A stretch of 12,097 bases of DNA from assembly GCA_903926695.1 (NCBI GenBank), contig CAIYKK010000744.1, forward strand, positions 1-12,097, given 5' to 3'. Origin of the DNA: an uncultured Burkholderiales bacterium. GTDB taxonomy: Bacteria > Pseudomonadota > Gammaproteobacteria > Burkholderiales > Burkholderiaceae_C. Shown piece after piece: positions 5,650 through 9,012 of this stretch; the stretch's first letter is position 1; every line of letters starts with the position of its first letter. A program made the translations under genes and the position numbers. Under the pieces are notes generated by a model. That model was not told the DNA's origin. It did not search any database and saw only the letters and a list, made by a program, of their open reading frames with translations.

Positions 5650-6312
5650 ATGAGCGATCAAATTTCATTTGAAACAAACGATTTTGCAAGTAATCCTGAG
5701 CCTCGTTGCCCATGCGTCTTGTTGCTTGATGTGTCAGGGTCAATGAGCGGCCAACCATTAGCCGAACTCAACGCCGGTCTGACAGTATTCAAAGACGAAC
5801 TTGCCGCTGACTCATTGGCTATGCAACGCGTCGAAATTGCTATTGTTACTTTTGGTCCAACAAAAATCGAGATGCCATTTACAAATGCATCTTCTTTTTA
5901 TCCACCAACACTGATTCCACAGGGAGACACTCCTATGGGGAGCGCGATTATGCAGGCTCTGGATTTGGTTCGAGACCGTAAAAACGATTACCGGACAAAT
6001 GGTATTTCTTACTATCGTCCTTGGATTTTTCTAATCACGGATGGCGGCCCGACTGACTCTTGGCAAGCTGCTGCTACAGCAGTTCGTGAAGGAGAAACCT
6101 CAAAGCAATTTGCATTCTTTGCTATTGGGGTTAAGGGAGCAAACATGGATGTTCTTAAAAAAATCAGCAGCGCCCGCGAGCCGTTATCGCTTGAAGGCTT
6201 GAAATTCAGAGAACTGTTTAGCTGGCTTTCCAGTTCATTACGATCAGTCTCTCGCTCCACGCCAGGAACTGAAGTACCTTTGGATTCGCCAAAAGGCTGG
6301 ACATCTGTGTGA
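5650..6312 (+). CDS. yegL: VWA (MIDAS) domain protein, YegL/TerY-like
   Basis: A 220-residue protein that is almost entirely a von Willebrand factor A domain. It has a complete metal-ion-dependent adhesion site: DVSGS (D27, S29, S31), the TPMG loop (T94) and DGGPTD (D131). It has no signal peptide or membrane segment, so it should act in the cytoplasm, binding a partner through the divalent cation. Length and order match E. coli YegL (about 219 residues, from memory) and TerY-type proteins of phosphorylation triads. AGGGAG (5638-5643) lies six bases before the ATG. Its stop overlaps the next start as GTGA (6309-6312), so translation is coupled to the phosphatase. The 242-base gap upstream, divergent from gh5, must hold the operon promoter; I see only weak -10-like sequences (5614-5626). 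Confidence 0.88.
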   Translation: MSDQISFETNDFASNPEPRCPCVLLLDVSGSMSGQPLAELNAGLTVFKDELAADSLAMQRVEIAIVTFGPTKIEMPFTNASSFYPPTLIPQGDTPMGSAIMQALDLVRDRKNDYRTNGISYYRPWIFLITDGGPTDSWQAAATAVREGETSKQFAFFAIGVKGANMDVLKKISSAREPLSLEGLKFRELFSWLSSSLRSVSRSTPGTEVPLDSPKGWTSV

Positions 6313-7070
6313 ACTGGCGAGTCGTTAGCGCCTCAGAAATTGGCACTTCGCATGTTGCAAATGCAGGCTCGTGCGAAGACAGTTGCTGGGCTCAAGTCGG
6401 ACTGACTGCTGGAGACCTTCCTTTTCTCTCCATTTTTGTTGCCGACGGTGCCGGGAGCGCTGCACGTGGCGGGGATGGTGCTGAGTTAGCAATACAGGCA
6501 GCAGCTGCTTTCATTGACGAAAAGTTGAAGCTGCATGAATTCGGACTCAGTGATGCGCTTGCCACAGAATGCATCCTTAAAGTTCGAGAAAAAATTTATG
6601 CAGTAGCCGAGTCCGAGGGACTTAAAGCTAGAGATTTTGCCTGCACGTTTCTAGGAGTTTTGTCGTTCACATTAGGCACACTGCTTATTCAAATCGGTGA
6701 CGGTGGAATAGTCATTGATATTGGAAATGGCCTGGAGGTTCCCATTACCCCTATGTCTGGTGAGTATGCCAACATGACAAATTTCGTGACCGATGAAAAT
6801 GCAGTAAATTTGATGGTTACTAAAACCTATCCGACTATTGCATCGCGAGTTGCAGCATTCAGCGATGGTCTTCAGCGCTTAGCTTTGAATATGGCAGAAA
6901 ACACGGCCCATGAACCATTTTTTGATCCATTCTTTAAAGTCCTCACTACAGCAAAACCTGAACAAGAAGACCAGTTAAATAGCGCCTTGGTCCGCTTTTT
7001 GAGAAGTTCTGCAGTAAACGAGCGAACTGACGACGATAAAACCTTGGCGCTGGCTGTTATCGTGGAATAA
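6309..7070 (+). CDS. pphC: PP2C-type serine/threonine protein phosphatase, PphC (YegK)-like
   Basis: A metal-dependent phosphatase expected to remove phosphate from Ser/Thr, probably opposing the downstream kinase. The PP2C metal-binding residues appear in order: CED near residue 22-24 (E23, D24), VADGAGS (D46, G47), IGDGG (D131), FSDGL (D186) and DDDK (D241-D243). The length (253) equals my recollection of E. coli YegK/PphC. It lacks a sensor or membrane domain. The GTG start at 6309 overlaps the stop of the VWA gene and has only a weak AAAAGG upstream, consistent with translational coupling. The kinase gene begins 7 bases after its stop. It is shorter and more divergent than PrpC/Stp-type enzymes and fits the TerY-P triad phosphatase branch. 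Confidence 0.85.
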   Translation: MNWRVVSASEIGTSHVANAGSCEDSCWAQVGLTAGDLPFLSIFVADGAGSAARGGDGAELAIQAAAAFIDEKLKLHEFGLSDALATECILKVREKIYAVAESEGLKARDFACTFLGVLSFTLGTLLIQIGDGGIVIDIGNGLEVPITPMSGEYANMTNFVTDENAVNLMVTKTYPTIASRVAAFSDGLQRLALNMAENTAHEPFFDPFFKVLTTAKPEQEDQLNSALVRFLRSSAVNERTDDDKTLALAVIVE

Positions 7071-7077
7071 ACGTCGA

Positions 7078-9012
7078 ATGATCAAGACACTCGTTACTTC
7101 CAAGGGTATCTCCATTAAAGTTGGGCGCGAACTCGGCAAGGGTGGAGAAGGTTCTGTATTTGAGGTTGCTGCGCCACAAGGTCAAGTGGCGAAAATTTAT
7201 CACCATCAGCCTGACATCAAAAAACAAGCCAAACTCACGTTCATGGCCAGCACGGTTGATCAACAACTTTTGGAATACATGACATGGCCGCAAGATACCC
7301 TCCACTCATCACAAAATGGCCCGGTCGTTGGATTTTTGATGTCCAAGGTCACAGGGTGCGATCCTATTCACAAGGTATACAGCCCTGCACACAGGCGTCA
7401 AGATCACCCTAAAGCCACTTGGCGTTTCTTGCTCTATGTAGCACGAAATACTGCAGCAGCCATTGAGGCATTACACGCGCACGGCCATGTTTTGGGAGAT
7501 GTAAATCAAGGCAATGTGATGGTTGGAGCTGACAGCAAGGTTGTCATCATCGACAGTGATTCAATTCAAGTCAATGCACGAGGTACTCTTCATCTTTGCG
7601 AAGTTGGCGTTGCACACTTCACACCGCCAGAACTGCAAGGTTTGTCATCATTTGAAAGTTTTACTCGTACTGCAAATCACGATAATTTTGGATTGGCTTT
7701 ACTCGTGTTTCACATCCTGTTTGGAGGCCGACATCCTTATTCGGGAGTTCCTCTTCAATCTGGTGTTGGAGAAGCACTGGAGAATGACATCAAAAGGTTT
7801 CGTTATGCCTATGCCAAGGATGCCCAATCTAGGGGTATTACACCTCCTCCTCGCTCGATACCAATTTCACTTGTTCCCGCTTCCATAGAGGCTATGTTTG
7901 AACGAGCCTTCACCGAGAAGGGCGTAACAGAAGGGAGGCCAACCGCGAGACAGTGGAAGCAGGCTCTTCATGGCATGCTTGGCCATTTAAAGACGTGCAG
8001 CACTTCTCAAATGCATGCCTATCCAGACCACCTATCCAAGTGTCCCTGGTGTAGTCTAGAACAACAAGGAGTCATTTACTTTCTTGGAACCACCTATATA
8101 TCCACTTCAACCGGATTTGTTCTGACGCAGACCTGGGCATTGATTGAAGCAGTTCCAGTACCACCTTTTATAGTCATACCAAATATTAGTGGGATTCCAG
8201 TTATACCTACGCCAATTCCGTCTTCCGTTACAAATAAAGGAAGTAGTTCCGCATATAGATTTTTCATAATCTTATTTGCAATCGCAGGTTTTTCTCTATT
8301 CCCCAAAATGTGGTTTGTTGTGCTGATTGCTACGTGGATTTTTTGGGTCATGGCCGGATCTACAGGCTCATCAGAGCGAGAACAAGAGCGACGAAACCGA
8401 AAAGGACGTAATGACGAGGCACTGCGCCAATTCAATGCACTTATAGAAAATGCAAAAAAAGAAACCGGGCCAGAACAGTTTAACGCCAAGCGGGAGGGAC
8501 TCAAAACACTTCGGAATGAGTATCAGGAACTTTCATTCTTAGAGAAAAAAGAATTGGACAAGCTCTACTCGACAGCCCAAGATCGTCAAAAGAAAAAATT
8601 TCTTGAACGATTTTTTATTGACTCTTCAGATATTCCAGGCGTCGGCCCTACAAGAAAATCAACTCTTCGCTCATTCGGGATTGAAACTGCAGCCGATATA
8701 AGTAAAAACCGCATACTTCAAATCAGAGGCTTTGGCGATAGCCTGACAAGAGCCCTGACAGATTGGAAAGCAAGTTGTGAACGCAAGTTCGTTTTCAATT
8801 CATCAATCGCTGTACCAGAATCCGATAAAAACATAGTTCGAGCAAAATTTGGTGCTCGAAAAGTTAGCCTAGAAACCGCCTTGAGCGGCGGAGCAGCGGA
8901 ACTCCAGCGCCTTCGACAAATGGTAGTTGCACGCGCCGCATCATTTCAACCGTCCATTGATCAAGCAGCTAAAAAAATGGCTCAAACGCAAAGCGATTTA
9001 ACGTTGTTTTGA
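7078..9012 (+). CDS. yegI: Hanks-type protein kinase with zinc-binding Cys, two membrane segments and HhH domain, YegI-like
   Basis: A 644-residue kinase of the YegI type. The kinase domain (about 10-300) has a glycine loop GKGGEGSV (20-27), an AKIY lysine (K39), a catalytic loop LGDVNQGN (D141, N146) and IIDSDS in place of DFG (D159). LGD replaces HRD, as in divergent bacterial kinases. A Cys/His cluster (C307, H313, CPWC 322-325) could bind zinc. A Pro/Ile-rich stretch precedes two hydrophobic segments (about 393-408 and 411-426), probably a membrane hairpin. A charged, coiled-coil-like region (about 430-510) follows, then a helix-hairpin-helix unit IPGVGPTRKSTLRSFG (519-534) with a second half at IRGFGDSLTRAL (549-560). 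HhH units usually bind DNA non-specifically. The order VWA, phosphatase, kinase and the length match E. coli yegL-pphC-yegI. The target is unknown. Confidence 0.87.
   Translation: MIKTLVTSKGISIKVGRELGKGGEGSVFEVAAPQGQVAKIYHHQPDIKKQAKLTFMASTVDQQLLEYMTWPQDTLHSSQNGPVVGFLMSKVTGCDPIHKVYSPAHRRQDHPKATWRFLLYVARNTAAAIEALHAHGHVLGDVNQGNVMVGADSKVVIIDSDSIQVNARGTLHLCEVGVAHFTPPELQGLSSFESFTRTANHDNFGLALLVFHILFGGRHPYSGVPLQSGVGEALENDIKRFRYAYAKDAQSRGITPPPRSIPISLVPASIEAMFERAFTEKGVTEGRPTARQWKQALHGMLGHLKTCSTSQMHAYPDHLSKCPWCSLEQQGVIYFLGTTYISTSTGFVLTQTWALIEAVPVPPFIVIPNISGIPVIPTPIPSSVTNKGSSSAYRFFIILFAIAGFSLFPKMWFVVLIATWIFWVMAGSTGSSEREQERRNRKGRNDEALRQFNALIENAKKETGPEQFNAKREGLKTLRNEYQELSFLEKKELDKLYSTAQDRQKKKFLERFFIDSSDIPGVGPTRKSTLRSFGIETAADISKNRILQIRGFGDSLTRALTDWKASCERKFVFNSSIAVPESDKNIVRAKFGARKVSLETALSGGAAELQRLRQMVVARAASFQPSIDQAAKKMAQTQSDLTLF

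Follow-up and report, generated by a model that had tools for sequence, protein, structure and literature searches.

YegI and PphC are among the few Hanks-type kinases and PP2C phosphatases of Escherichia coli. YegI has been described as a membrane-bound kinase that autophosphorylates on Ser, with PphC removing the phosphate; both genes are weakly or not expressed during standard growth, and no condition is known to require either protein (PMC13232886). The TerY-P triads of ter and CoCoNuT loci are reported to be made up of a von Willebrand factor A (VWA) protein, a PP2C phosphatase and a kinase with a zinc-type module, and the kinases of CoCoNuT operons carry a zinc ribbon (PMC11090510). The antiphage TerY-P of Gao et al. 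2020 is described in two papers as a VWA protein, a phosphatase and a kinase ending in an oligonucleotide/oligosaccharide-binding (OB) fold (PMC11090510, PMC7699616). Here we analyzed a VWA–PP2C–kinase triad in a stretch of 12,097 nucleotides (the window), the whole of contig C744 (CAIYKK010000744.1) of an uncultured Burkholderiales bacterium, G000, which is a metagenome-assembled genome (MAG) of 3.25 Mb in 751 contigs, 86% complete and 4.5% contaminated. A sequence-only reading of this DNA had proposed a transferred, mobile triad of the yegL-pphC-yegI type with a stress or defense role; its observation was confirmed and its interpretation partly supported. What is added here is a clean insertion site with defined ends, occupied by a transferred copy of a known family of unexplained function, and a recurrent DUF4236 neighbor of related triads.

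The Triad Is Orthologous to yegL-pphC-yegI

The three open reading frames (ORFs) were found where the sequence-only reading had placed them and are as tightly coupled as it held. The GTG start codon of the PP2C gene lies within the GTGA overlap with the VWA stop codon (6309-6312), and 7 bases (7071-7077) separate the PP2C and kinase genes; all coordinates refer to the whole window, position 1 being its first letter. An AGGGAGA ribosome-binding-type site and a leader precede the VWA gene within 5516-5649, and no excess of promoters or terminators was seen across 5400-9100. End to end, the products are 71, 55 and 52% identical to YegL, PphC and YegI, which in E. coli K-12 have 219, 253 and 648 amino acids (aa), and by this comparison the window genes are orthologues of yegL-pphC-yegI.

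The window shares gene order, protein lengths and kinase layout, including the helix-hairpin-helix (HhH) region, with the E. coli locus, but the latter carries yegJ between pphC and yegI and yegD next door, neither of which occupies that place in the window. The catalytic-loop residue N146 of the window kinase is replaced by Ser in the E. coli row, and the triad, near-universal in E. coli, is foreign in the window genome. In E. coli (locus L002), yegJ (DUF2314) occupies 8186-8647 on the opposite strand between pphC and yegI; in five of the ten E. coli records listed, the match covers 82% of the region and yegJ is not annotated.

The active-site residues noticed earlier proved nearly invariant among relatives. 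The metal ion-dependent adhesion site (MIDAS) residues D27/S29/S31/T94/D131 are kept in 81-82 of 82 VWA rows, and the PP2C metal residues D131, D186 and D242 in all 83 rows and D46 in 81 (the other two being gaps), a few rows of both alignments being cut or shadow ORFs. K39, D141 and D159 of the kinase are invariant in 66/66 rows, as are C307, H313, C322 and C325 of the putative metal-type site. The Pkinase match (E=9.4e-05) stays under the Pfam cut-off (22.4 vs 31.7 bits). The structure model (predicted local distance difference test, pLDDT, 90) contains a predicted membrane hairpin of two helices (387-407 and 409-428) and no strand past residue 316. HHH_5 matches at E<=0.5 were obtained for 27 of 34 C-terminal kinase segments (best 7.6e-05), and the kinase probably carries an HhH module; the zinc-type, membrane and HhH modules that had been suggested for it were thus found as invariant residues, a predicted hairpin and a probable domain, respectively. 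A C-terminal profile gave weak matches in the PDB, with repeat regions of a large unrelated protein ranking first and HhH segments of ribosomal L32e, DNA polymerase IV and UvrC lower (E 0.04-0.6). The PDB fold matches listed for the kinase model span the kinase domain only.

A protein-only scan of genome contigs found no relative; an alignment-based scan yielded 179, and the 80 best of them form the set of named loci. The order VWA, PP2C, kinase is complete in 77 of these, the other three (L042, L054, L073) having contig ends within the operon. The named loci span Pseudomonadota, Bacillota, Actinomycetota, Planctomycetota, Cyanobacteriota, archaea and others. The triad type occurs with a kinase identity of 34-40% also in Synergistaceae and methanogenic archaea (L058 and L074, plus the Methanoregulaceae loci L057, L065, L068, L070, L071 and L073).

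The Triad Is Foreign and Inserted between GH5 and dusC

GC content is 46.0% in the triad and 62.8% in the 3 kb to either side of it, so that the AT-richness noted earlier was borne out. Its third-position GC amounts to 38-41%, compared with 78-83% in GH8, GH5, dusC, murI and the last gene of the window. Synonymous-codon usage of the triad correlates at -0.14 with these five native genes, each of which correlates at 0.85-0.95 with the remaining natives. Since both GC content and codon usage deviate this strongly from the native genes, the block is foreign in the window genome and was horizontally acquired. Read by eye, the GC deficit of the window appears the largest among 82 tabulated loci; the mean of triad GC minus far flank is -1.6 points (69 loci with enough flank).

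The distribution in related genomes is patchy. A kinase match was found in 19/87 genomes of the genus, at full length only in G000 and G029, the remaining 17 matches being short and confined to the kinase core. The family gave 4/399 (G000 and G391 at full length, two partial) and the class 6/274 (two of them partial); all these sets include incomplete genomes, in which absence is no proof. We also looked for the picture expected of a native operon, universal and syntenic in the genus with native codon usage, and did not find it.

The site of insertion was defined by comparison with relatives lacking the full-length kinase. By sequence comparison, six of them have GH5 and dusC adjacent, on the same strand and in the same order. 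The spacing between the matched ends is ~270 bases in G028, 335-337 in G049, G008, G027 and G019, and 728 in G002, against ~3.6 kb in the window. From coordinates alone, it is below 300 bases in G026 and G043. DNA similarity to dusC sets in again at 9057-9061, both in these six relatives and in three more, one of which is G042. With these empty sites and the resumption of dusC likeness, the insert is placed by sequence as ~3.4 kb holding the triad operon only, from within 5516-5649 to within 9013-9056 (Table 1). Transfer into an accessory position of a betaproteobacterium, as had been proposed, was thus upheld by codon usage, distribution and the empty sites alike. No repeat of at least 20 bases was found at the two insert ends, and the only recombinase gene recognized in the window is an IS607 remnant.

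GH5 was matched in 26/87 genus genomes, the window counted. Seven further relatives without the full-length kinase (G021, G007, G062, G032, G064, G017, G048) have 1.3-5.1 kb between GH5 and dusC, and coordinates alone give a still larger distance in G006 and G051. Given these longer intervals, the place may be a variable one, open to other inserts. The genome nearest by dusC, G042 (90% DNA identity), has no triad and no GH5 match at 1e-50.

The rearrangement scar that had been noted beside the operon is real, but separate from the cassette. The 3' end of GH8 with its downstream region (956-1265) has a 97% repeat at 9686-9995, flanked by a dusC without its 5' part and by an IS607-type gene without its 3' part. 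Scar and cassette are separated by ~650 bases of dusC that are colinear with relatives, and a link between the two is not supported. Judging from this arrangement, the scar is separate and unneeded to explain the insertion; it is possibly an assembly error.

In the 67-kinase tree, the window copy pairs with Rhodoferax sp. U11-2br and the metagenomic protein P0003 (support 99/99). The second copy of the genus (G029, Polaromonas, locus L037) is not its sister, hence the two were probably acquired separately. The YegI proteins of E. coli and Klebsiella are nested in a seven-row set with betaproteobacteria (100/100; the adjacent fork is weak, 88/38), a placement which suggests, without proof, that enterobacteria received the triad from the betaproteobacterial side.

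As for vehicles, the only match among virus contigs covers 69 residues where a contig ends, and a single weak match came from phage records, so that phage carriage is not the usual route. Among 72,556 plasmid records 49 matched, some of them being chromosome-sized E. coli records. The idea of a mobile cassette held for the single-operon insertion described here, but general mobility of the triad is not supported, given its near-universality in E. coli, where at least 80% of the yegI-yegL region is kept in 5343 of 5426 complete genomes.

Table 1. Features of the window and predicted layout of the kinase.
Feature	Position	Strand	Remarks
GH5 family gene	3008..5407	-	left neighbor of insertion site; native codon usage
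Left junction zone	5516..5649	.	likeness to relatives' GH5 upstream region fades at ~5516; judged by eye; a zone rather than a point
VWA/MIDAS protein, YegL orthologue	5650..6312	+	220 aa; ORF; Pfam VWA E=1.9e-10; 71% identity
PP2C phosphatase, PphC orthologue	6309..7070	+	253 aa; Pfam PP2C_2 E=8.2e-38; 55% identity
Hanks-type kinase, YegI orthologue	7078..9012	+	644 aa; 52% identity
Kinase domain	residues ~1-305
C-H-C-C metal-type site	residues 307-325		putative
Membrane hairpin	residues 387-428		predicted
Long helices	residues 431-498		structure model
HhH-like region	residues ~505-569		structure model
C-terminal helices	residues 581-643		structure model
Right junction zone	9013..9056	.	includes last dusC codons (stop at 9039); DNA similarity to relatives' dusC from 9057-9061
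dusC	9039..9683	-	right neighbor of insertion site; 5' part missing
murI (putative)	10460-11320		name read from sequence, no family search
Fumarase-type gene (putative)	11357-12079		name read from sequence, no family search

Comparison with TerY-P and CoCoNuT Systems

The likeness to TerY-P triads that had been pointed out holds in the broad sense: from its sequence, the triad combines a TerY-like VWA protein, a PP2C phosphatase and a kinase with a zinc-type site. In the TerY-P of ter and CoCoNuT loci that site likewise follows the kinase domain, but the window kinase adds the predicted membrane hairpin and HhH region, and the window contig lacks TerD and has only the three triad genes between GH5 and dusC. 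The antiphage type shares VWA protein, phosphatase and kinase; in place of the OB-fold, which is absent here, the window kinase has the strand-free hairpin/HhH region. Assignment to the OB-fold type was rejected on the lack of strands after residue 316 in the model and the HHH_5 matches found instead. The kinase matched the STK_OB model only at E=0.0025 (residues 139-193), and PADLOC gave no match for the VWA and PP2C proteins. CoCoNuT types II and III-A were rejected as well, CnuB, CnuC, CnuH and CnuE being absent from an operon of three genes only. By analogy, the OB-fold kinases acting against phage and the zinc-ribbon kinases of CoCoNuT operons suggest that a nucleic-acid-binding tail is a common theme, of which HhH would be the version of this branch.

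TerD-family genes occur in the window genome at five places, on contigs C76, C87, C395 and C606 (L200-L203). Any TerD was found in 5/87 genus genomes and several places in 3/87 (G000, G005, G042). No TerD lies on the window contig, and the fragmented assembly cannot show its distance to the TerD places; no triad gene was present on the ter contig stretches read (of C87, 8,000 of 17,891 bases).

Genomic Surroundings of Related Triads

The neighbor set comprised 71 loci left after removal of duplicates from the 80, plus L002 (E. coli) and L017, which is the same Thiomonas contig as L041, hence one gene was counted twice. Left out were the window, L033, L034, L035, L045, L061, L081, L087, L098, L099 and L003 (which repeats L037). 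Genes were called as mechanical ORF picks, a few VWA and PP2C picks being shadow or cut ORFs. The 129 nearest neighbors of at least 120 aa matched 246 PADLOC models (E<=1e-5), 129 genes at distances above 5 kb in these loci 244, and 129 control genes from 20 arbitrary regions of eight related genomes 26; these are counts of models and not of proteins, and redundant, as one GajA-like protein matches many, and the control covers Burkholderiales-like genomes only, the triad loci being taxonomically broader. Among the matches listed, the nearest neighbors gave GajA, JetA, reverse-transcriptase and WYL types and the distant genes GajA, JetD and type I specificity models, whereas the control models seem mostly general ATPase-, helicase- or regulator-like, along with MzaA, a model for type IV restriction and some others. 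Mrr_cat endonucleases account for 3/129 nearest neighbors. The triads of relatives lie in defense-rich regions.

The commonest Pfam family among the 129 nearest neighbors was DUF4236 (PF14020), with seven occurrences against ~0.001 expected, a figure that assumes ~3800 genes per genome and independence and applies to the 129 neighbors, not to the 80 loci. When all ORFs were searched, firm matches near the triad were found in 9/80 loci (L023, L028, L029, L037, L041, L044, L076, L078, L081) of eight genera, L078 and L081 both being Xanthomonas; weaker ones occurred in L056 and L095. Five (L023, L028, L029, L044, L076) were confirmed singly with Pfam, and L078 and L081 by our own profile only; PF14020 is given in a protein listing for the L041 protein and for a Polaromonas protein of the length of that in L037. 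The remaining two of the seven among the 129 are inferred to be L056 and L095, given the seven hits of our own profile in the same set. The gene lies on either strand, and its position varies between 22 bases past the kinase in L037 and 1.8 kb upstream in L029. Seven loci encode a protein of 365-395 aa in which an N-terminal DUF4236 is followed by a hydrophobic, helical segment and a conserved domain at the C-terminus; it is probably membrane-bound, and its model (pLDDT 86) had no PDB match at E<=0.001.

The family is rare: PF14020 was above the cut-off in 7/274 class genomes, and the long DUF4236 family has eight places in 7/399 order genomes. Read by eye, carriers are scattered over the kinase tree next to sisters without DUF4236, so that the association has more than one origin, for which residence of both in the same islands may be responsible. 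DUF4236 places were also sampled independently of the triad: none of the eight order places (flanks up to ~8 kb, some shortened at contig ends) and none of eight class-sample places (~1.5 kb on each side, one place below the Pfam cut-off) had triad genes. With 0/16, DUF4236 does not need the triad, and the association is one-way. The class and order searches found no DUF4236 in the window's genome, and the literature search found no link between DUF4236 and the triad, its sole mention of the family concerning Salmonella population structure. The recurrent DUF4236 neighbor is a new lead and could be a partner of the triad, perhaps as a substrate or an effector.

In six Burkholderia-type loci (L059, L066, L076, L077, L079, L090) the stop codon of the kinase gene is overlapped by a gene of ~220 aa (167 in L066). 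In the sequences read, its product opens with a signal-like segment and contains Cys-rich repeats (PPNAHL...WEC..GY); it is probably secreted. Several of the Burkholderia-type loci also have a gene of ~307 aa divergently upstream.

Proposed Function and Alternatives

We propose, with a probability of roughly 0.55, that the triad is a transferred membrane phospho-switch with an output in stress response or phage defense. The kinase would be held at the inner membrane by its helical hairpin, with the catalytic domain and the C-terminal HhH region on the same side, probably the cytoplasm. The metal-type site and HhH would respond to a signal, for which nucleic acid close to the membrane is the most plausible candidate, and the kinase would then phosphorylate itself and a target; PP2C would reset it by dephosphorylation, and the VWA protein may bridge kinase, phosphatase or target via its MIDAS-bound metal. 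The output partner would usually be encoded away from the triad; in some relatives it would be the product of an adjacent gene, the DUF4236 protein. An inducible function in stress response or phage defense is suggested by the patchy distribution and by the defense-rich regions in which relatives lie, but the defense role is an unproven hypothesis. The insertion with defined ends and the recurrent neighbor family offer handles on the phenotype of the cassette.

Several points weigh against this proposal. The cytoplasmic placement of both kinase ends is derived from two predicted helices; the HHH_5 match of the window kinase itself (E=0.014) is below the cut-off, and HhH may bind protein or merely aid assembly. 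The triad has no known phenotype, and its near-universality on E. coli chromosomes is unusual for a defense system. Besides the redundancy of the PADLOC counts, genes beyond 5 kb are no less defense-rich than adjacent ones, hence the signal belongs to the region and not to the triad itself. The defense role suggested by the sequence-only reading agrees with the regions of relatives but not with the window's own Pfam-scanned neighbors (GH5, GH8, dusC and the IS607 remnant), which look metabolic.

A possible, though not favored, explanation is a general envelope or stationary-phase signaling module, spread by transfer and unrelated to phages, as islands gather all kinds of accessory genes. Near-universality in E. 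coli and the probably secreted Cys-repeat proteins of the six Burkholderia-type loci fit it. So do the yegD transcripts that reportedly build up as cells recover from stationary phase, and the reported binding of RNase E by YegJ, encoded within the E. coli locus (PMC13232886). The triad is, however, patchy in the genus, family and class searched, and the excess of defense models around relatives over arbitrary regions likewise speaks against this module. More doubtfully, the triad may be the signaling core of a modular, membrane-associated immune system with an exchangeable output partner: HhH would detect nucleic acid at the membrane, and the phosphatase would silence the partner until then. 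The partners would be the DUF4236 protein in some loci, the secreted Cys-repeat protein in Burkholderia-type loci and host proteins elsewhere.

A tellurite- or ter-linked metal-stress module, TerY-P in its original sense, is unlikely. VWA, PP2C and a kinase with a metal-type site fit the described layout, and the window genome, with its five TerD places on other contigs, is one of only three with several. TerD and triad are nevertheless on separate contigs as far as these were read, the other triad genome of the genus, G029, has no TerD, and the overlap in one genome is not significant; ter linkage was rejected as the main explanation. Least probable is an assembly or binning artefact joining foreign reads to a Comamonadaceae contig, which the fragmented, contaminated MAG and the 97% repeat with a broken dusC ~650 bases away could favor, but against which stand a 94%-identical kinase (P0001) from five other contigs (known by kinase sequence only) and genus-typical genes on both sides in the order of the relatives.

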